From Oscillospiraceae bacterium (GTDB lineage: Bacteria; Bacillota; Clostridia; Oscillospirales; Oscillospiraceae): 45,597 bases of DNA. The translations under genes and the position numbers were made by a program. Position 1 is the first letter of the stretch. Each line of letters begins with the position of its first letter. Where the stretch lies: the NCBI GenBank assembly GCA_017458065.1, contig JAFTGD010000033.1, forward strand, positions 1-45,597, read 5' to 3'. Below are positions 17,153 to 26,480 of the stretch, piece after piece. Under the pieces are notes generated by a model. It did no database searches. It saw only the letters and a program-made list of their open reading frames with translations, and was not told where the DNA came from.

Positions 17153-17705
17153 ATGCCGGGTGAGAGCGACGAGGCGGTGTATCTCCGCTTTCTGGCTGAG
17201 CGGCGCGAAGAGGACCTGATCGAGCTGCTGCACCGCTATGAGGAGGGGCTGAGGCTCTTCCTGTACGGCTATGTCCGAAACCTGCAGGACGCCGAGGAGC
17301 TGACTTACGACACCTTTGCCGCCATCTCCTCAGAGAAACTGGCGGCGGAGCGGGGCCAGCTTCAAAACCTGGCTCTTCGCGGTGGCGAAGAAGCAGGCCC
17401 TCATGTTCCTGCGGAAGAACCGGCTCCGGATCGAGCCGCTGGACGAGGCGCAGGCCGCGGCGGAGCTTCCGGACAGCCGCCTCCTGCAGGAGGAGCGGAA
17501 CCGTAAGCTCTATCTCGCCATGAACCAGTTGAGCCCGGAATACCGGGAGGTGCTTTATCTGCACTATTTTGAACAACTCAGCCACGCGGAGATCTGCAGC
17601 GTAATGGGCAAGAACATCCGGCAGGTCTATCACCTGATGGAGCGCGGCCGGGCGGCGCTGAAGAACAGGCTGGAAGGGATGGGGATACACGATGCGGACG
17701 GATGA
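17153..17705 (+). pseudogene. ECF-type sigma-70 family RNA polymerase sigma factor, split by a 1-base frameshift
   Basis: The ATG at 17153 has GGGAGG eight bases upstream. The first frame gives sigma region 2 (residues about 10-60: FLYGYVRNLQDAEELTYDTF), then degenerates to an Arg/Gly/Pro-rich readthrough that ends at 17506. Region 2 continues in the +1 frame with SFKTWLFAVAKKQALMFLRKN and is followed by region 4 (LSPEYREVLYLHYFEQLSH, then a helix-turn-helix). Removing one G from the run at 17352-17355 restores a single 183-residue ECF sigma factor of normal length. The break may be a real mutation, a sequencing or assembly error, or less likely programmed frameshifting. The downstream membrane-protein genes are intact and tightly overlapping, which argues that the factor is or recently was functional. 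Confidence 0.85.
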
Positions 17706-18018
17706 AGAAAAGGTACGGGAGATCCTGCGCCGCGGAGAGATCATGAAGACAGAGTGGCTTCTGCGCCGCAAAATCGCGGCGGAGGCGGCCTCGCTCGTCC
17801 TATGCCTGGTCCTGATCATCACGGTCTGTGCCGTCTCGCCCGCCCTGACGGGGACGGCAGGCACGTCAAACGCCGGGCGCTACGGCAGCCTGATTCTCAC
17901 AACGCCCGATCTTGCCGTGGCGGTGATCGGCCTGCTGTGCTTTGCCGCGGGCTTTCTCACGGCGCTGCTGTGTAAAAACTGCAGCGCCTTGTGCCGGACG
18001 GAGAGAAGAAAGCCATGA
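17692..18018 (+). CDS. Two-TM protein beside the ECF sigma gene; candidate anti-sigma or partner
   Basis: This 108-residue protein overlaps the end of the sigma gene by 14 bases. Its first 27 residues are charged and helical, with the block MRTDEEKVREILRRGEIMK, followed by a span at about 28-49, a short outside loop, a second span at about 73-93 and a Cys/Arg-rich cytoplasmic tail. No zinc-binding anti-sigma motif is visible. A paralogue with the same N-terminal block heads the next operon (19581-19940). A small membrane protein directly after an ECF factor is the usual anti-sigma position, and a PrsW-type protease follows two genes later. The role is inferred from context, not from a recognised domain. 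Confidence 0.75.
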   Translation: MRTDEEKVREILRRGEIMKTEWLLRRKIAAEAASLVLCLVLIITVCAVSPALTGTAGTSNAGRYGSLILTTPDLAVAVIGLLCFAAGFLTALLCKNCSALCRTERRKP

Positions 18019-18797
18019 ACACCGCGGTCATTCCCGCTGCACTGCACGCGCTGGCGGCCGCGCTGGTGCTCTGGCGCAGCGTGCACTTCCTGAGCCGGAA
18101 CAGAGAGGACAGAAGAGTGATCCTCTGGGTTTTCGCCGTCACATGCCTCCTGATGAGCGACCTGTACTGGATCATTTACGATCTTTTGCAGCCGCAGGCG
18201 CGGATGCCCTTCGCCGCCAACGAGATCTGTGAAGGGGCAAGCTTTCTCCTGCTGGCGGGCTGCCTGACCACGGTGTTCTTCGGCCGCTTCGGCAGCATCC
18301 GGAGGGTGGAGCTGGGTACGGCGGCCTTTGCCGCCGCCAATGTGCTTCTGTGGATCTTCTGGTCCGGGGAGTGGCTGCAGGATGTCCTGATCGGGCTTGC
18401 CTTCGGGTATCTCCTGTGCCGGACCGCCGCCTGCATGAAGCTCTGCGGGGCGCTGCGGCGCGGGGAATGGATCGCGCTGGCATCCCTCTCCGGCCTGCTG
18501 GTCCTGCTGGAAGCGGCGTCCCTCCTCGCACCTGAGAGGGCTGGGGCGCTCCTGGACGCCGGCAGCACGGCGCTGCTCTTTGCCGTGCTGGCGTTCTTCA
18601 CCGTCGGGAGCATCCGGGCGCTGCGCGCCGCCGGCGGCGAGGACCGGGCGGTCAGCCTGTCCTTTGCCGTTTTTGTCTGGAGCCTCATCACCCTGTACAG
18701 CACCGAGGGGACGCGGTATCTGGCGGCGCTTCCCTGCAGCGCAGCGGCCCTGGCGCTGATGCTGCTGGCCCTGGAGAGGGAGGTGGAAAAGCTGTGA
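18015..18797 (+). CDS. Multi-TM membrane protein of unknown function
   Basis: I place the start at 18015, where ATG overlaps the previous stop as ATGA, giving 260 residues. The protein has about seven or eight hydrophobic segments, for example residues 4-20, 34-53, 68-87, 95-115 and 190-210, and short charged loops. I recognise no family and see no catalytic motif. It lies between the two-TM protein and the PrsW-type protease with 4-base overlaps on both sides, so the products are probably made in fixed proportion. A sensor or scaffold role for the protease is possible, but this is speculation from gene order. Confidence 0.7.
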   Translation: MNTAVIPAALHALAAALVLWRSVHFLSRNREDRRVILWVFAVTCLLMSDLYWIIYDLLQPQARMPFAANEICEGASFLLLAGCLTTVFFGRFGSIRRVELGTAAFAAANVLLWIFWSGEWLQDVLIGLAFGYLLCRTAACMKLCGALRRGEWIALASLSGLLVLLEAASLLAPERAGALLDAGSTALLFAVLAFFTVGSIRALRAAGGEDRAVSLSFAVFVWSLITLYSTEGTRYLAALPCSAAALALMLLALEREVEKL

Positions 18798-19417
18798 TCT
18801 ACGCGGAGAACATCCTGCTCTGCATCGGCATCCCGCTTCTGCTCACGCTGCTGTTCCTGCGGGATAACGCGAGGCGCTTTGTGCTGGGCTTCCTGCTGGG
18901 CATGGCGGCCTGCCTCCTGGCGGCTTATGTCAGCGGCTTTCTGGACCTGGTCAGCGGCATGGGGCAGGAGAACACGGCCGTCTTCCTCTCGCCGGTGATG
19001 GAGGAGCTTATGAAGCTGCTGCCGCTGCTGGCCTTTCTGCTTCTGTTCCGGCCGGAGGACGGCGAGCTGCTGCAGACGGCCATCGGGATCGGCGTGGGTT
19101 TTGCCACCTTTGAAAACTGCTGCAACATGCTCACCGCCGGCGCCGCCAGCCTCTCGCATATTCTGGTGCGCTCTCTGGCGGTGGGGGTGATGCATGTCGT
19201 CAGCATCCTCGCCCTGACCCTGGGCCTCGCGCTGACCAAACGGGTCAGGATGCTGAGCTTCCCCTGCGTCTTGGGCGCATACTCGCTCTCGGCCACCTTC
19301 CACGCCATGTATAACCTGCTGGTCTCTGAGCCCGGGACCTCCCGCTGGATCGGCTACGCCCTGCCCCTGCTGACGGCGCTCCTGCTGTACGGGGCATACC
19401 GCCGCCTCCGGGTATAA
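18794..19417 (+). CDS. PrsW family intramembrane metalloprotease
   Basis: This 207-residue membrane protein carries the PrsW signature: Glu70-Glu71 and Lys74 in VMEELMK, the FATFEN block (residues 103-108), His134 in GVMHVV, and His170 with Asn174 in FHAMYN. About seven hydrophobic spans are present. In Bacillus subtilis PrsW makes the first cut in the anti-sigma factor RsiW, which releases the ECF factor SigW. Here the gene shares an operon with an ECF sigma gene and a small membrane protein, so the same regulated proteolysis is a natural hypothesis. The start is a GTG that overlaps the previous TGA as GTGA. The unit ends at the terminator 19438-19470. Confidence 0.85.
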   Translation: MIYAENILLCIGIPLLLTLLFLRDNARRFVLGFLLGMAACLLAAYVSGFLDLVSGMGQENTAVFLSPVMEELMKLLPLLAFLLLFRPEDGELLQTAIGIGVGFATFENCCNMLTAGAASLSHILVRSLAVGVMHVVSILALTLGLALTKRVRMLSFPCVLGAYSLSATFHAMYNLLVSEPGTSRWIGYALPLLTALLLYGAYRRLRV

Positions 19418-19437
19418 TCCGATATCACTTGCATGGA

Positions 19438-19470
19438 CCGCTGCCCGTCTTTCGGGCAGCGGATTCTTTT
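19438..19470 (+). terminator. Terminator after the PrsW-type gene
   Basis: A 10-bp perfect stem (19438-19447 with 19453-19462) with a 5-base loop is followed by ATTCTTTT. It separates the sigma operon from the surface-protein operon. The stretch from 19471 to 19580 is AT-rich and should hold the promoter of the next operon; TGAACTTTTT near 19483 resembles an ECF -35, but I cannot define a matching -10. Confidence 0.85.
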
Positions 19471-19580
19471 ACTCTGAAAAATATGAACTTTTTGTAAACA
19501 AATAGCCTTGGACTGGGTAAAAAACGGAAAACCTGCAAGTAAAATACAAAGGGAATTTTCCGGCGGAGGAGGACTGTGCC

Positions 19581-19940
19581 TTGCGGACGACGGAAGAAGC
19601 GCTGACCGAGATCCTGCGGCGGGCGGAGATTATGAAAAAAGAACACGAGCTCCGGCGCCTCGGCTTTCTCTCGACGCTGGCATGTGTGCTGACGGTAGGG
19701 CTTATCGTCTTGGTGTCCCGTGCGACGGGCAGCCCCGCGCAGGAGGGCAATGCGGTCATGGGCGCGTTTCTCCTGGGGCCGGAGGTGGGCGCCTATGTGC
19801 TGGTGGCCATCGCGGCGCTCATCACCGGGATGAGCCTGTCCACGCTGATCTACCGGAAGAGAGAGCTGGATTCCGCCCGGTCCTCCGGCCGGGAGGAGAC
19901 ATCGAAGCTGTCACAGGGAAAAGAGGACACGATGAAATGA
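19581..19940 (+). CDS. Two-TM protein, paralogue of the protein beside the sigma factor
   Basis: Translation starts at a TTG with GGAGGAGGA eight to nine bases upstream, giving 119 residues. The N-terminal block MRTTEEALTEILRRAEIMK matches that of the 17692-18018 product over about 26 residues. The architecture is also the same: a charged cytoplasmic helix, a span at about 27-48, an outside loop, a second span at about 66-90, then a hydrophilic tail. The gene heads the operon of exported proteins and overlaps the next start by four bases. I recognise no database family. The shared N-terminal helix is the best candidate for a common binding partner, possibly the sigma factor. Confidence 0.75.
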   Translation: MRTTEEALTEILRRAEIMKKEHELRRLGFLSTLACVLTVGLIVLVSRATGSPAQEGNAVMGAFLLGPEVGAYVLVAIAALITGMSLSTLIYRKRELDSARSSGREETSKLSQGKEDTMK

Positions 19941-21121
19941 AAACCAAACGTTTATTTGCCTGTTTCCTTTGCATCATGATGCTGTTCAGCCTACTGCCGG
20001 CCGGCGCGCGGGCGGAGTTCTTTGATCCGATCGACGGCCTCGCCTCCCTCGGAGAGTTCACCCCGCCTGAGATGATCCTCCCGGACGATGTCGGCACGGT
20101 GGTCGCGGACGTAATAGAAGCCGCGGACACTCCAGAAGAGGGGACAGCGCCGCAGGAGGAAGAGACAGCCGAAGAGCCGGAAGAGCAGGAACCGGAGGAC
20201 GATGGCAAGCTGCGGATTTATCCAGCCGACGGCTCCTTCCATCTCACGATAGAGGGCGTCACAGAGACCGAATCCCCGGTCCCGCCCGAACTGCGGAAAC
20301 TGGTGAACGGACAGGCAAAGCCTGTACGGACAGAAGACGGACAACTCGCCGGGCAAAAGCTGTACCTGAAGACCCCGGACGCGGAGGAGCTGTATCTCGA
20401 CCGCCTCGAGGTGGAAAAGACCCTGGGCTATTACACCGCGGACTGGACCGTGGTGAACCTGACAGACGCCGGGGGCGAACGCAAGGCCCTCACGGCGGCG
20501 GGCGCTTCTTATAACGTGATCTTCTCCGGCCCTGCGACGGAGAAATATGCCGGCTATGAGCCGGTCTTCGCTCTGCTGACCCTGCACTGGGACGAGAAGG
20601 GCGCCATCGTGGGCCGGGACGTGGAGTTTCTGGAGACGACCCATACGGAGAGCTATAGCTCCTGGAGCTTTATCACGGACTGCCTCTCCACCCTGGTGAT
20701 CGCGGTCCCGACCGGCCAGCCGTATATGGAGGGCATCCATCCGAAGACGGATGCTGACGGATACCCAATCTGGTCATTATCCATTCCCAGCAGTCAGCCG
20801 ATTGCTTATAAGGCAGAGCGGACAGAAATCGGAACGATCTCGGTTAAGGAAGCTTCCAATTTTACAGATGGTCAGGCAATCTCTGTGACACTGGACTACT
20901 CCTCGTTTCAAAGTGATACGTATTCTATTCCGATTGAAATCACTGTCATACAGAACGGATTAGAAAGTGCATGGAGAGCTGGGACAACTATTTCATTAAG
21001 CCCTGACGGCAGTGATCCTATAACGTTATTTGTAAATATCAGCGCTGAAGCGTGGACGGCTGCGCCACATGGTGCTTATGCCATTTCGCTGATCTTCAAT
21101 TCGGCTCTTTCGGGGAGGTGA
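19937..21121 (+). CDS. Exported protein with acidic linker and shared C-terminal beta domain
   Basis: The ATG at 19937 overlaps the previous stop as ATGA and gives 394 residues. A signal peptide (MKTKRLFACFLCIMMLFSLL, cleavage likely after ARA at residue 26) is followed by an acidic stretch of Glu/Pro/Thr (about 60-90) and a middle domain of unknown type rich in predicted beta strands. A C-terminal domain (about 277-394) has LSIPSS, SVKEAS, LDYSSFQ and an end reading NISAEAWTAAPHGAYA. The same C-terminal pattern recurs in the 21697-22980 product. Base composition changes inside the gene near 20760, from GC-rich to clearly AT-richer, at the border of that domain. No anchor is seen, so the protein may be secreted or bound by partners. 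Confidence 0.78.
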   Translation: MKTKRLFACFLCIMMLFSLLPAGARAEFFDPIDGLASLGEFTPPEMILPDDVGTVVADVIEAADTPEEGTAPQEEETAEEPEEQEPEDDGKLRIYPADGSFHLTIEGVTETESPVPPELRKLVNGQAKPVRTEDGQLAGQKLYLKTPDAEELYLDRLEVEKTLGYYTADWTVVNLTDAGGERKALTAAGASYNVIFSGPATEKYAGYEPVFALLTLHWDEKGAIVGRDVEFLETTHTESYSSWSFITDCLSTLVIAVPTGQPYMEGIHPKTDADGYPIWSLSIPSSQPIAYKAERTEIGTISVKEASNFTDGQAISVTLDYSSFQSDTYSIPIEITVIQNGLESAWRAGTTISLSPDGSDPITLFVNISAEAWTAAPHGAYAISLIFNSALSGR

Positions 21122-21126
21122 TATGT

Positions 21127-21672
21127 ATGGCAGGAAATCATGAAGCGCCGAGAGCGCACAGGAGCAAACGAAAACGTCAGGCTGTCAGCCAGCGAATTGT
21201 GATCATATGCCTTGTTCTTCTGCTCCTTATGGCCGTTTGTGTAATCGTATGGCTCGCCAATAGAAATAACAGCAATCCGGAATCAGGATCGAAAGCAGAA
21301 AGCACAGCTCAGGCCTCACAATCGGGAAATGGCGGCCTTGTCGTCCCGGAACGCCCGGAGATGATCGACATTACCGCCTATGAATCCCTTGAGTTCAAAG
21401 CGGATACGCTGGAACAGTCCGTCCGCTTTGATAACCCGCTTCAAAACAACTGCTGGCTGGTGATCACCCTGTCCATGGAGGACGGCACGGTGCTTTGGAA
21501 GTCGGAGGAGCTTCAACCGGGCCAGGTGGTACGGAGCATCACGCTGAATCAGACGCTTTCGGCGGGTGAATACAATAACGCGATCCTCAGCTATCAGCAC
21601 TGGACATACGACGCTGAAAAAGAACCGCTCAACGGGGCGGAGACAATCGTAACGCTAAAAGTAGTTCAATAA
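21127..21672 (+). CDS. Single-TM protein with extracytoplasmic domain
   Basis: The ATG at 21127 has GGGGAGG eight bases upstream and gives 181 residues. A basic cytoplasmic N-terminus is followed by one span (about residues 23-45), a Ser/Asn/Gly-rich linker and an outside beta-type domain of about 110 residues. The domain has FDNPLQNNCWLVITLSMEDG and KSEELQPGQ, and LNQTLSAGEY closer to the C-terminus. Proteins of this form accompany surface-protein genes in other Clostridia, but I know of no assigned function. It lies five bases after the previous gene and 24 before the next, inside the five-gene operon. Confidence 0.75.
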   Translation: MAGNHEAPRAHRSKRKRQAVSQRIVIICLVLLLLMAVCVIVWLANRNNSNPESGSKAESTAQASQSGNGGLVVPERPEMIDITAYESLEFKADTLEQSVRFDNPLQNNCWLVITLSMEDGTVLWKSEELQPGQVVRSITLNQTLSAGEYNNAILSYQHWTYDAEKEPLNGAETIVTLKVVQ

Positions 21673-21696
21673 AAAACATATATGGAGGAATTTAAC

Positions 21697-22980
21697 ATGA
21701 AAAAGGTATTTTCCCTTTTGCTCTGCCTGCTCCTCGTCGTGGGATGCTTCCCGATGACGGCGCTGGCGGACGACACGACCATCACAGTAGATGGCGAAAC
21801 CAGCATTTCCCTTACCACTGGAGTCCCCGAGCTGGCCTCGATCACCGTCACAGCGCCGACCAAGACGCAGTACAATGTGGGCGACGAGCTGGACACGACC
21901 GGCATGGTGGTCATGGCGAATTACAATTACACAGACGACACACCGAAGGATGTAACATCCGCTGTCACGCTTTCCGGCTTTGATTCTTCTTCTGCTGGTG
22001 AGAAAACTGTCACGGTTTCCTATACAGAGGGGGATGTCACGAAGACGGCGACCTTTACCGTCACGATCATCGAACCCGTTGTCACAACCTATACAATCTC
22101 GGTTTCCGCCGATCCTGCGGAGGGCGGCACGGTCAGCGGCGGCGGTACGTATGACGAAAACGCCTCTATCACCGTAACGGCCACAGCGAATGACAACTAT
22201 ACCTTTGTGAAATGGACAGAGGACGGCGAAGAGGTTAGCACCAGCGCAAGCTATACCTTTACTGTGACCGGCAACCGGACGCTGGTGGCGGTGTTTGAGC
22301 CGGAGCAAGTGATCTACACTGTGACCGTTCAGCCGGGCGATGGCACAGGGACAGCGTTCACCGTGGACAGCACGACCGTCATTTCCCGCGAGGAAATGAT
22401 AAGTGGAAACTATGACCAAACAAAGGGCTGCTTCTATTTGGATACGGACGGCAAGGTCTATTACATGTTTCCACGCCAGTGTCCGTTTACCGCACCGGGA
22501 GGAAAAGAATTCGACTGCTGGCAACTGAGTTCCGGCGGCACATTCAGCGGCGGCGCATCGCTTGAAGCGGGCAACTTCACAATCACCGCTCTGTATAAAG
22601 AGCCGGAATCGGAACCTTCCATCACCCTTTCCATCCCTGCAACGATAAACATCAATTATGGTGATACGCAGACTGCGTTTGATATTCAGGTAAAAGAAGC
22701 CGTATTCCGCAATGATGGGGGCAATTTTGAGGTACTTTTCCCATATTCTTCCTTCCAATGCACTTCGCATGATGGAACAATACCGTTTACTGTCACCACT
22801 AATGCAGAGGGAGTTCCCAATGGTCATCATGGAGATAAAGGTTACTTTGCCATCCTTCATGGTACGCCTTTGCCATTTAGCTGTCAGGGATTTATCAATA
22901 TCACCAGCGACGCTTGGGCTGTGGCGAAGCCGGGCAACTATACAGCTACGTTAAAAGTTCAAGTAGTGTGGATTCAATAA
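21697..22980 (+). CDS. Exported multidomain protein with Ig-like and InlB-type repeats
   Basis: GGAGG eight bases upstream fixes the start at 21697, giving 427 residues; an ATG at 21682 overlaps that site. After a signal peptide ending TALA (residue 24) comes a group 3 bacterial Ig-like domain (about 47-124: KTQYNVGDELDTTGMVV). An InlB B-repeat-like domain follows (about 131-201: ADPAEGGTVSGGG and FVKWTEDG), then a less clear third unit (about 207-301, with FDCW), and a C-terminal domain (307-427) with LSIPA, VKEA, PYSSFQ and NITSDAWAVAKPGNY. The last domain matches the end of the 19937-21121 product, and its DNA is again AT-richer. No wall anchor is visible. Adhesion or surface assembly is likely. 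Confidence 0.85.
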   Translation: MKKVFSLLLCLLLVVGCFPMTALADDTTITVDGETSISLTTGVPELASITVTAPTKTQYNVGDELDTTGMVVMANYNYTDDTPKDVTSAVTLSGFDSSSAGEKTVTVSYTEGDVTKTATFTVTIIEPVVTTYTISVSADPAEGGTVSGGGTYDENASITVTATANDNYTFVKWTEDGEEVSTSASYTFTVTGNRTLVAVFEPEQVIYTVTVQPGDGTGTAFTVDSTTVISREEMISGNYDQTKGCFYLDTDGKVYYMFPRQCPFTAPGGKEFDCWQLSSGGTFSGGASLEAGNFTITALYKEPESEPSITLSIPATININYGDTQTAFDIQVKEAVFRNDGGNFEVLFPYSSFQCTSHDGTIPFTVTTNAEGVPNGHHGDKGYFAILHGTPLPFSCQGFINITSDAWAVAKPGNYTATLKVQVVWIQ

Positions 22981-22993
22981 TTGGAGAATCGCC

Positions 22994-23647
22994 ATGGGAG
23001 AGCATACACAAAGCAGAATCATCCTGTCGCTCCTGTTGGGGCTTATTCTGCTTGCGCTCTGTCTGCCCGTCTGTGCTTATGCAGAAGATGCCGAGTTTTC
23101 CGGCGGTGACGAGGCCGGTATCTCTCTTACCACAACCGTCCCGCCGGAAATCACCGCCGGAGGCGGTGCGGAATACCGCAAAGGGAGCACGGACGGACTG
23201 ACCTTCCAAACAGACGACGCAAAGGATAATCTGCTGCGCGTCCTCGTGGACGGAAAGGTCATTTCCTCCGATAAGTATTCCATATCCGGGGAGCCGCTGA
23301 CGACTACCCTGTACGCCGATTTCCTGGATACCCTGTCCGCAGGAGAGCATACCATCGAGATCGTCACGACGAACGGCAGCGCGGAGACTGCGTTCACCGT
23401 CGTGGAGGAGACGCCGAAACCGAGCCCGACGCCGACTCCCACCCCGAGCCCAAGCCCAACACCCGCGCCGAGTCCGAGTCCGAGCCCAACTCCGACGCCA
23501 ACGCCGAAGCCGGATCCGCAAAAGGGACCGAAGACCGGTGACGAGAGTAGCAGCGGATTCTGGGCGGCCGTGATGGCGCTGTCCGGTATGGGTCTCTGTG
23601 GGTTCGCCGCCGCAGGGAAAAAGCGTCGCGAAAAGCGTCGACAGTAA
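22994..23647 (+). CDS. Wall-anchored surface protein with Pro-rich stalk and sortase-like sorting signal
   Basis: This 217-residue protein has a signal peptide (cleaved near residue 30, CAYA) and an outside beta domain (about 60-137: FQTDDAKDNLLRVLVDGK and LSAGEHTIEIVT). A stalk of alternating Pro with Ser, Thr or Ala follows at 141-176, then GPKTGD (178-183), a hydrophobic span and a basic end (KKRREKRR). That order is the standard cell-wall sorting signal, with GPKTG in place of LPxTG. TTGGAGA lies before the ATG. It shares an ISLTT-x-VP element with the preceding protein, near residue 43. No sortase gene is in the window. It is the last gene of the operon. Confidence 0.85.
   Translation: MGEHTQSRIILSLLLGLILLALCLPVCAYAEDAEFSGGDEAGISLTTTVPPEITAGGGAEYRKGSTDGLTFQTDDAKDNLLRVLVDGKVISSDKYSISGEPLTTTLYADFLDTLSAGEHTIEIVTTNGSAETAFTVVEETPKPSPTPTPTPSPSPTPAPSPSPSPTPTPTPKPDPQKGPKTGDESSSGFWAAVMALSGMGLCGFAAAGKKRREKRRQ
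23412..23521 (+). repeat. In-gene Pro-Ser/Thr codon repeat (wall-spanning stalk)
   Basis: About 36 codons alternate CCN (Pro) with Ser, Thr, Ala or Lys codons. Short DNA units such as CCGAGTCCGAG recur, which makes this a likely site of length variation between strains. It lies wholly inside the wall-anchored protein gene. Confidence 0.8.
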
Positions 23648-23690
23648 AAAGCAACATCCCGGAGCCAATTTCGGCTCCGGGATGTGCGCT
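23648..23690 (-). terminator. Long hairpin, copy A; terminator of the HEPN/MNT pair
   Basis: Arms 23654-23666 and 23673-23685 pair perfectly around a 6-base loop. On the minus strand the hairpin is followed by a T run (TTTTTACT), so it ends the hepT transcript; it may also stop the surface operon arriving from the other side. About 39 bases are almost identical to copy B at 26672-26715. From 23691 to 23768 I see nothing else. Confidence 0.75.
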
Positions 23691-23768: not shown

Positions 23769-24164
23769 TTATCGACTTAATAAGAAGGTCTTGATTTTAC
23801 CAATGAAATATTCTGCATTATAGACCTGTTCGGCAATATCGCTCTTGGCAGCAACAAAAAAATCGTTATAGTCGCTGTCGGTACGCAAATCAAACAGATC
23901 TCGAATGATGTCGGAAAGATTAGTTTCGAAAATACCGGTTTTTATATATAAGCGCCGAAACTCAGCAATCACACCACTGTGATGCTTCGAATCATATCCA
24001 TCAAGAGCCAATACAGCGCGCATGGCATGAAAAACAGCATAGTAAGAACGATTGGCGGCACTTCTATAGCTTTTACTCTCAAGAAGGAGCTTTGCATCTG
24101 CCAAGCATTCTTCTGCTTTCTCTAGTCGCACCCGGGATAGTGACATTCTGTTCTCAAGCGACAT
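23769..24164 (-). CDS. HEPN domain toxin, HepT-like
   Basis: This 131-residue all-helical protein is a HEPN-domain member of the kind paired with MNT nucleotidyltransferases. It has the R-x(4-6)-H RNase motif as Arg39 to His46 in NRSYYAVFHAM, preceded by the family's RLEKAEECLADAKLLLE helix. A DSDYNDFF segment lies toward the C-terminus. HepT toxins cut or inactivate RNA and are silenced by AMPylation or by binding of the MNT partner. The gene overlaps its partner by 11 bases and is AT-rich compared with the flanking chromosome, in line with horizontal transfer. The hairpin at 23648-23690 closes the unit. Confidence 0.88.
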   Translation of the reverse strand: MSLENRMSLSRVRLEKAEECLADAKLLLESKSYRSAANRSYYAVFHAMRAVLALDGYDSKHHSGVIAEFRRLYIKTGIFETNLSDIIRDLFDLRTDSDYNDFFVAAKSDIAEQVYNAEYFIGKIKTFLLSR

Positions 24165-24492
24165 AACGTATTCCCTCTGTCAGCACATTGTGGTAAAAAG
24201 GCAGGTCATCTGCGTATTGTGTAAACAACTTAAATGGCACGGCCGTGACGGAGATGGTGATATCATAGTTTAGACACAAGTCGCTTACAATGTGAGAGAT
24301 TGCGCGGCGACGCGAGGTGATTTCCGGCCAGTCAAGATCCACAAGCAGAAGAATATCAATATCCGATTCTTCATGATAATCACCACGGGCATAAGACCCA
24401 TACAGATATGCGTCCATGATTGGCGCCGGAAAGACAGTTGAACATTTTTGATAAACCTCGCCCAGAATCTTAACAGCGTCCGCTGTGCACAT
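24154..24492 (-). CDS. MNT domain nucleotidyltransferase antitoxin, MntA-like
   Basis: This 112-residue protein is a minimal nucleotidyltransferase. The active-site pattern GS-x10-D-x-D is intact: Gly32-Ser33, then Asp44 and Asp46 in SDIDILLLVD. In characterised HepT-MntA pairs the MNT protein neutralises the HEPN toxin by transferring AMP groups to it. The antitoxin gene comes first, with GGAGG seven bases before the ATG and a strong promoter at 24530-24558. The HEPN gene follows with an 11-base overlap. The pair could act as an addiction or anti-phage module; which of these applies cannot be told from sequence. Confidence 0.88.
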   Translation of the reverse strand: MCTADAVKILGEVYQKCSTVFPAPIMDAYLYGSYARGDYHEESDIDILLLVDLDWPEITSRRRAISHIVSDLCLNYDITISVTAVPFKLFTQYADDLPFYHNVLTEGIRYVA

Positions 24493-24849: not shown

Positions 24850-25863
24850 TTATCGAGCCAATCCGTTAATCTCCGTTTCCAGACCTGAAATAGCCGCCAT
24901 GATTTCATCAAAAGACGGCTGCTCGCCATAAATCATGTCTCTCATGTGATCGTAGTCTGCGCTCAAATCTTTGATTGCAGACTCGCTGGGAATCAGTTTT
25001 ACTGTGCCGATTTGCGCAGTTTCATAGGACGCATTTCTTGTGTAATAGAACTTGAGTTTGAACTTCACATCCTGCTCCAGCAGCTCTTTTCGACTGAAAA
25101 CTTGCTCTTTCACGGCACTGCGGCTCATCTGATAAAGATCATAGTAATGCCGGGCATAACGAGGCGGGATTCCTTTCCGGTCATATGATGCAGCTGTCTT
25201 ATGAAGAATCGTGACTTTCTCCCAGAATGTTCTTTCAACATCCACAGTGGGTATGATAGTATCTGCCTGACGAAACGCCTTCGGAAACTGATCGGCTGCT
25301 ATTGAAGTGATCGTAACAGGATGAGACGGAACCCATTCCGCAAGCGGCCCTATTTCCAGCCTGATTTCCTGCCTTAGATAATTTGTGTTGAACACATGGG
25401 GATAGAAGAAATTGACTGTACATTGGTCCTTATCGTCCGGGTCCATGCGCACGATCACATTTTTGCCGATTATGCTGCTTATGTCCTGTTCCATTTGAGG
25501 GGCAAAGATCTGAGTCAAGAACTCCGAGGCGCTTGCCACAGCTTTTTTGTTAAACTTGTCTTGCTGTGTTTTGGATCGCTCCTCCCATGGTTCATGAATC
25601 CCATAGCCAAGCAGCCGCCAGTCCATAATCAGGTCTATATCTTCCGAGAAACGTTCGATCACATGATATGCCTTGCTGAGGCTTGTGCCGCCCTTAAAAA
25701 TAAACGACTGCGGCCATGGCGACTTGTGGAACAGATAATCCAGAGTAAAGCTGACCCAGAAATCCTTCTCAACAATTGACGGATTCCGGATACCCGCCTT
25801 CTCTGCGGCATTTCCAAACAGCACTTCCCGGTCTGCATCACTTGATTTCGCAATCGTAATCAT
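24850..25863 (-). CDS. AbiEii/AbiGii family nucleotidyltransferase toxin
   Basis: This 337-residue protein is an AbiEii-type nucleotidyltransferase-like toxin (type IV toxin-antitoxin or abortive-infection systems). Conserved elements are Glu32-Lys33-Asp34 (VEKDFW), the [11 protein letters not shown] block (Lys57 to Lys64), [10 protein letters not shown] with Asp75 and Asp77, FWEKVTILH, and the YYDLYQM segment toward the C-terminus. Characterised members use NTPs to modify targets such as tRNA and stop growth during phage infection. Its ATG overlaps the stop of the antitoxin gene as ATGA. The gene is AT-rich relative to the core genes, and its 3' end lies next to the aldo/keto reductase relic. 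Confidence 0.9.
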
Positions 25864-26480
25864 GGTGATTTCTCCTCACATATCTTTTTGATTTCCTTGT
25901 AAATCCAGCCAGATGCAGTGCGGGCTTCCTTCAGTAAGGTTTCTCTGTCTTGCGCTGTGAGCGCAGAAGAAAACCGATCCAGTTGGTCCTGCGTCATGTT
26001 TCCCATGCCAATGGCGCGAATGCCCTGAATGATCATTACTGTGATTGGAGAGTATCCGTTAATCTCTCTCGGCATAATGTGTTTGAATTTTAATGGCGTC
26101 CTTCCGATCGTGTAATCACGATAGGGGCCATCGCTGACATATTCCCATACATTCGGAACCTGCGTAGAAATATGCAGAATATTTAGGGCGGTGTCTCCCG
26201 ATGGCGCGATATTCCAGTTAAATCTCCGTGCCAATGCTTCTGCAATTTTATCGATTCTTGGGACTCCGTATTCCTGAATCAACTGACTGAATGCAGGTTT
26301 ATCGTAAACACCGTTCATGACGCGGCGGATCTTTCCTTCCTTCTCTATCCGAAACAGGGCCTGGCTCACAGTGTTGGCGTCAGCAATATCAAGAAAATCC
26401 GAAGCCGAAAATGCAGCGCCATAAGGATAGTCTATGATACGTTCTTCAATCTGAGACTGGTATTTTGGTCGTTCGCTCAT
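25860..26480 (-). CDS. DUF6088 / AbiEi-like antitoxin
   Basis: This 206-residue protein matches the DUF6088 group of antitoxins found before AbiEii genes. Its N-terminal ~70 residues form a winged helix (SASDFLDIADANTVSQALFR and then KIRRVMNGVYDKP). The C-terminal part has the family segments IAPSGDTALNIL, STQVPNVWEYVSDGPY and KHIMPREING. AbiEi-type antitoxins repress their own operon through inverted repeats and counter the toxin without a stable complex. GGAGG lies nine bases before the ATG. The promoter upstream overlaps an inverted repeat that fits such autoregulation. Confidence 0.86.
   Translation of the reverse strand: MSERPKYQSQIEERIIDYPYGAAFSASDFLDIADANTVSQALFRIEKEGKIRRVMNGVYDKPAFSQLIQEYGVPRIDKIAEALARRFNWNIAPSGDTALNILHISTQVPNVWEYVSDGPYRDYTIGRTPLKFKHIMPREINGYSPITVMIIQGIRAIGMGNMTQDQLDRFSSALTAQDRETLLKEARTASGWIYKEIKKICEEKSP

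Follow-up and report, generated by a model that had tools for sequence, protein, structure and literature searches.

A conserved ECF sigma/PrsW cassette with candidate two-TM anti-sigma factors and a predicted surface-protein operon in Clostridia

Gene organization of the locus

The candidate envelope-signalling region lies in a window of 45,597 nucleotides, which is the whole stretch of DNA that was analysed. It is composed of two units split by a terminator hairpin at 19438–19462. The features are, in order:

17153..17506, +, first frame of the ECF sigma gene, running from the N terminus into region 2
17316..17705, +, second frame of the ECF sigma gene; remainder of region 2, then region 4 carrying the recognition helix QVYHLMERG
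17692..18018, +, two-TM protein A; adjoins sigma, where anti-sigma genes usually lie, and is a candidate anti-sigma factor
18015..18797 (ORF from 17991), +, multi-TM protein; modelled with nine helices and a candidate for a sensor or PrsW partner
18794..19417, +, PrsW-type intramembrane protease; PF13367, 62 bits versus a cut-off of 23.5
19438..19462, +, intrinsic terminator with a 10-bp stem, dividing the two transcription units
19513..19542, +, predicted sigma-dependent promoter CTGGGTAAAA-N10-CTGCAAGTAA; 22.5 bits, or 20.2 bits with the locus left out of training
19581..19940, +, two-TM protein B, starting with TTG; heads the predicted target operon and is a candidate anti-sigma and feedback protein
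19937..21121, +, S1, exported protein; signal peptide-like start, with its ATG overlapping the two-TM B stop codon
21127..21672, +, S2, single-pass membrane protein with an outer domain; close homologue in locus L022 (E 6.6e-70)
21697..22980, +, S3, exported protein; Big_3 and InlB-type Flg_new_2 domains, homologue in L022 (E 4.9e-193)
22994..23647, +, S4, exported protein; proline-rich stalk and LPXTG-like anchor, homologue in L022 (E 1.1e-44)
23654..23685, no strand assigned, 14-bp hairpin at the operon end; scored as a terminator on the minus strand

Neighbouring genes from sigma through PrsW overlap by 4 to 14 bases. The region contains seven terminator matches versus a mean of 6.5 in shuffles, and the hairpins at 19438–19462 and 23654–23685 have by far the longest stems. 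The gene inventory of an earlier note on this DNA holds in full, with every part present at the position it had given. That note had also described the two-TM, multi-TM and exported proteins as matching no known family. The description stands for both two-TM proteins, the multi-TM protein, S1 and S2, which have no match in Pfam or NCBIfam at curated cut-offs, but not for S3, which matches Flg_new_2 (60.7 bits) and Big_3 (41.9 bits). S4 bears an LPXTG anchor as defined by TIGR01167 (19 bits versus 15.9). The AlphaFold2 model of the multi-TM protein, with a pLDDT of 93.9 and a pTM of 0.92, contains nine helices.

The reading frame of the sigma gene shifts between about 17340 and 17375, while relatives have intact genes. 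The second frame matches Sigma70_r4_2 (57.7 bits versus 25.7) and the sigma70-ECF model TIGR02937 (69 bits versus 42.9); region 2 falls under its cut-off on each of the two broken frames. ECF sigma factors are built of region 2 and region 4 only, in about 180 residues, and the window's sigma factor belongs to this group. The intact sigma factor of a relative (L079, 189 residues) matches ECF structures across both regions. The frame change in the window is either genuine or an error of the assembly. If it is genuine, the system may be inactive in the sequenced genome.

Distribution of the cassette

PrsW was surveyed in 60 genomes, consisting of the window's own genome, 36 of its genus and 23 of its order. 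Two genomes besides the window's contain a cassette-type PrsW. Four aligned PrsW proteins were used to scan named genomes, and the best 80 of 369 relatives were taken. With three loci from the two genus relatives and the window itself, this gave 84 loci picked by PrsW, among which L046 duplicates L007. Judged by title, the best 80 come mostly from Lachnospiraceae and unplaced Clostridiales or Clostridia, with some Oscillospiraceae, and most are ruminant MAGs. One cassette (L089) lies on a MAG contig titled Coriobacteriales, outside Clostridia, through transfer or a binning error.

Iterated profiles detect sigma in 81, a two-TM protein in 82, and the multi-TM protein and PrsW in all 84 of these PrsW-chosen loci. 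The recurring set in rumen and gut Clostridia is sigma, two-TM A in part of the loci, multi-TM protein, PrsW, two-TM B and an exported protein. Exceptions in order are L053, where a two-TM gene lies between the multi-TM and PrsW genes, and L078, where sigma is on the opposite strand. The cassette is not a chance arrangement, since this gene set recurs in dozens of other genomes.

The loci had been picked by PrsW, and a reverse search from the two-TM family toward PrsW was therefore run. Among 391 genomes of the class, all 15 strong two-TM matches (E<1e-10), found in eight genomes, adjoin a cassette-type PrsW; at most 12 candidates were scored per genome, so that stray copies could escape this count. 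Four of the 391 genomes contain a strong PrsW (E<1e-30) with no strong two-TM match. When all 58 candidates of the window's own genome were scored, the two-TM family was found solely in the window. The class survey thus bears out the proposal that the two-TM family accompanies ECF and PrsW genes, and the opposite pattern, a family usually found without them, was not observed.

The multi-TM and PrsW genes directly adjoin in 83 of the 84 loci (the exception is L053) and form a single ORF in L074. The two proteins could be a membrane proteolysis pair working independently of the two-TM proteins. In L152, L153 and L154, PrsW relatives have an adjacent multi-TM gene, and the stretch retrieved there contains neither ECF nor two-TM genes; these may represent an older two-gene unit. 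The 15 of 15 strong two-TM matches beside cassette-type PrsW, and the overlap of the window genes into a single unit with sigma, argue against this reading, which we consider improbable.

A promoter-like motif upstream of two-TM B

A motif of two boxes, GTGAGTAAAA-N10-CTGCAACTAA, lies upstream of two-TM B. It scores at least 12 bits in 57 of 60 usable loci versus 0 of 300 shuffles, and the count remains 57 of 60 with leave-one-out training. The spacer between the boxes is 10 in about 90 percent of loci. Random pieces reach 12 bits in 5 of 600 cases, about the yield expected from real sites in those loci. In the window, the scored block stops 35 nt before two-TM B. Terminator-like sites, too, lie ahead of two-TM B: they occur in 32 of 60 loci versus 2 of 300 shuffles.

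Across 1.2 Mb of loci, both strands contain 73 sites of at least 14 bits, and a shuffled copy contains none. By the script's rule, 63 of these sites precede two-TM genes, 1 precedes a sigma gene and 9 are others, some of which also precede two-TM genes when inspected by eye. The sigma gene itself lacks the motif in its upstream region in 71 of 72 loci. The window's variant, TGGGTAAAN{12,14}GCAA, occurs once in its own 3.6-Mb genome.

A looser pattern was searched in 36 genomes and gave 27 sites in 19 of them, versus 0 for the reversed control; the other 17, including the window's own genome, have no match to it. Fifteen sites precede two-TM genes or the two-TM/protease fusion of L103, and one adjoins a cassette (L095). 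Of the remaining sites, nine precede exported-looking proteins elsewhere, without a two-TM gene, and two are likely chance. Two of these nine exported proteins, in L094 and L111, are close homologues of each other. The motif thereby picks out candidate regulon members directly, namely nine exported proteins outside cassettes in the 36 genomes.

Covariation between promoter and sigma factor

Covariation was scored over the 54 loci with a scored promoter and an intact sigma gene, a set that excludes the window. Where the variable −35 base is A, sigma residue 168 is Asn in all 38 loci. Where it is G, the residue is His in 15 of 16 loci and Arg in one. This top pair scores 0.74 versus a maximum of 0.33 in 30 shuffles, which do not keep relatedness. 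Sigma residue 168 aligns with T171 of SigW, a residue described as contacting A-34 (PMC6713349).

Sigma residues 65, 71, 73, 75 and 91, all in region 2, covary with the −10 bases more strongly than any of 30 shuffles. At base 4 of the −10 box, C accompanies Met91 in 33 of 40 loci and G accompanies Lys91 in 8 of 9. Pairs of an unexpected kind, joining −10 bases to region 4, are weaker and under the shuffle maximum, yet make up 3 of the top 10. Inspection of the window by eye shows the expected pairing, His with G and Met with C. The tree is weakly supported; along it, the −35 base changes six times, with one independent pair on starred branches and six on all branches.

The sigma gene and the surface operon might be mere neighbours, with the motif belonging to another regulator. 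The covariation could be inflated because linked genes share a history, the tree is weakly supported, and part of the covarying pairs connect the −10 box with region 4. Against the neighbour reading stand the two boxes with their spacer of 10 in about 90 percent of loci and the fit of the window, which is outside the set. In addition, the motif letters covary most with the linked sigma at a residue in its DNA-reading helix and at residues in region 2. This reading is very improbable.

The sigma factor very probably drives the surface operon, as the earlier note had proposed, because the motif is conserved and covaries with the linked sigma, at DNA-reading residues among others, and because the window fits; the single occurrence of the window's variant in its 3.6-Mb genome agrees with this. 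From sequence comparison, it very probably also drives other exported proteins elsewhere in some genomes. The proposed sigma-promoter code, Asn or His with A or G, is a testable feature of surface-protein control in rumen and gut Clostridia. The window's −10 box bears a rare G at a position that is C or T in the other 58 scored promoters. Because of this G and the broken sigma frame, the system may be active or inactive in the sequenced genome.

Cargo of the operon

An ORF follows two-TM B in 67 of the 70 loci examined. Fifty-six of these ORFs look exported, with a signal-peptide-like start, and 11 do not; 41 are at least 500 residues long, and 26 overlap two-TM B as ATGA. The window shares S2–S4 with L022, which is the same place as L107, and S1, S2 and S3 have no strong match in the other cassette loci. 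In L011, L015 and L034, the first gene after two-TM B is non-exported, without a signal-peptide-like start. By eye, L011 and L015 have genes resembling an LD-carboxypeptidase and an oligopeptide transporter after two-TM B, rather than surface proteins. In 13 loci, a gene for a trypsin-like protease lies no more than 2.2 kb downstream of PrsW.

Two-TM proteins as candidate anti-sigma factors

Each two-TM protein begins with an N-terminal stretch rich in Arg and Lys, about 28 columns long; two hydrophobic segments follow, separated by a short, charge-poor loop, and a basic tail ends the protein. Both ends are probably inside, given the Arg/Lys-rich N terminus, the two hydrophobic segments and the basic tail. 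The outer loop contains a conserved stretch, YGSxLL...GGY, which suggests that PrsW may cleave the two-TM proteins outside the membrane.

Two related ECF genes (L127 and L134) are directly followed by a gene for a single-pass protein that also contains the N-terminal helix of the two-TM family. In addition, the two-TM N terminus is fused to Trypsin_2 domains in L045 (2782–3561) and L103 (1604–2554), and, by profile, to a trypsin-like protease in L073 (5641–6642). These fusions recall HtrA-type site-1 proteases. Copy A is present in 43 of 79 cassettes, 38 of which also have copy B; the other 36 lack copy A, and 33 of them have copy B.

Two classes of anti-sigma domain were compared. The class I domain of the RsiW type is cytoplasmic, at least 50 residues long and often carries Hx3Cx2C (size criterion from PMC7406223). 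It was rejected for the two-TM proteins, whose cytoplasmic N terminus spans about 28 columns in A2 and has no Hx3Cx2C by eye; they also have no match among the Pfam anti-sigma families. The class II, CnrY-type domain is a short helical peptide that binds both sigma domains; the length of the N terminus fits it, and the two-TM proteins are candidates for this class by length. Other ECF genes of such genomes have apparent zinc anti-sigma proteins in the corresponding place (L197, L199 and L202, by eye). In L195, a related ECF gene is followed by a small protein that looks like a two-TM protein and is unlike the family in sequence.

No pair between the two-TM N-terminal helix and sigma exceeds the maximum of 10 shuffles (40 pairs for copy A, 65 for copy B). 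One pair of copy B beats the shuffles (0.45 versus 0.38), yet it links sigma residue 75 with the end of TM2.

The two-TM proteins might instead be helpers or sensors of the export of the neighbouring surface protein, with another protein, perhaps the multi-TM protein, holding sigma. The signal-peptide-like ORFs after two-TM B (56 of 67), the ATGA overlaps (26 of 67), the 36 of 79 cassettes without copy A and the lack of helix–sigma covariation above shuffles agree with such a role, and the multi-TM protein is present in all 84 PrsW-chosen loci. Copy A, however, lies beside sigma and distant from the cargo, and the N-terminal helix recurs after other ECF genes. Also against such a role, nine predicted regulon sites lie before exported proteins that have no two-TM gene, and the genes after two-TM B in L011, L015 and L034 have no signal-peptide-like start. 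We regard an export role of this kind as rather unlikely.

The two-TM proteins are likely anti-sigma factors, judging from their position, the sharing of their N-terminal domain and the protease fusions. The earlier suggestion that they replace RsiW is plausible on this evidence: the position of copy A, the helix after the ECF genes of L127 and L134, and the fusions speak for it, whereas the lack of helix–sigma covariation and the cassettes without copy A speak against it. With slightly less confidence, we infer that PrsW is the protease that cuts them. The two-TM proteins point to a compact anti-sigma family that would be new, and the multi-TM protein would be a partner of PrsW.

Proposed mechanism

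The preferred reading is a self-contained envelope-signalling cassette of a sigma factor, two-TM anti-sigma proteins and a PrsW/multi-TM unit with feedback, to which we assign a probability of roughly 60%. First, the ECF sigma factor would be made from a promoter of another type, the motif being missing before the sigma gene in nearly all loci. The two-TM proteins would keep it at the membrane through their short cytoplasmic N-terminal helix, a compact anti-sigma in place of RsiW. Second, the multi-TM protein and PrsW would form a single sensing and cutting unit. On an outside signal, PrsW would free sigma by cutting the two-TM protein in or close to its short outer loop. Third, and well supported by the sequence comparisons, sigma would read the two-box motif and transcribe two-TM B with the downstream exported proteins and, in some genomes, other exported proteins elsewhere. 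Fourth, the two-TM B made from this operon would shut sigma off, as negative feedback.

More tentatively, the cassette may be a widespread signalling-and-display module. A nine-helix sensor and PrsW would cut a new hairpin anti-sigma, a second copy would give feedback, large surface proteins would be exchangeable cargo, and the Asn/His with A/G code would direct transcription.

Comparison with known systems

A literature search found no description of the cassette, which is conserved and apparently undescribed. It is a novel version of ECF/anti-sigma/proteolysis (ECF/RIP) signalling, a type already known. SigI/RsgI of clostridia resembles it in that a sigma factor under a membrane anti-sigma controls surface proteins. 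However, SigI is of another sigma class, RsgI has another anti-sigma architecture, and the system is not known to include a PrsW.

In B. subtilis, PrsW makes the first cut in RsiW, the anti-sigma of SigW (PMC3498285). SigW/RsiW/PrsW and the cassette both combine an ECF sigma with a PrsW-type protease. In contrast to that system, no RsiW-like zinc anti-sigma was found in the cassette, and PrsW is encoded inside it. The cassette's PrsW does not reach the cut-off of the PrsW equivalog NF033739 (31.2 versus 225 bits), and the promoter differs. The cassette also adds the multi-TM protein and a second anti-sigma candidate heading the target operon.

In SigM/YhdL/YhdK of B. subtilis, two membrane proteins encoded after the ECF gene jointly act as anti-sigma (PMC6827917). 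Going by that description, the cassette is set apart in that its two proteins are mutual paralogues, one of them lies in the target operon, and PrsW is present. CnrH/CnrY, with a class II anti-sigma domain, resembles the cassette in that the piece proposed to bind sigma is a very short helical part in the cytoplasm (PMC7406223). Compared with CnrY as described there, the two-TM proteins have two TM segments, and the cassette has an intramembrane protease.

Neighbouring and additional genes

The window's own genome contains a second PrsW-family gene (L010, contig C41, 5309–6043; 124 bits), with no ECF gene beside it by eye. Downstream of the surface operon, the minus strand of the window encodes a HEPN domain protein adjoining a nucleotidyltransferase protein (23769–24492), likely a toxin–antitoxin pair. 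An AbiEii toxin-type protein and a DUF6088 protein follow on the same strand (24850–26480), likely a type IV toxin–antitoxin pair.
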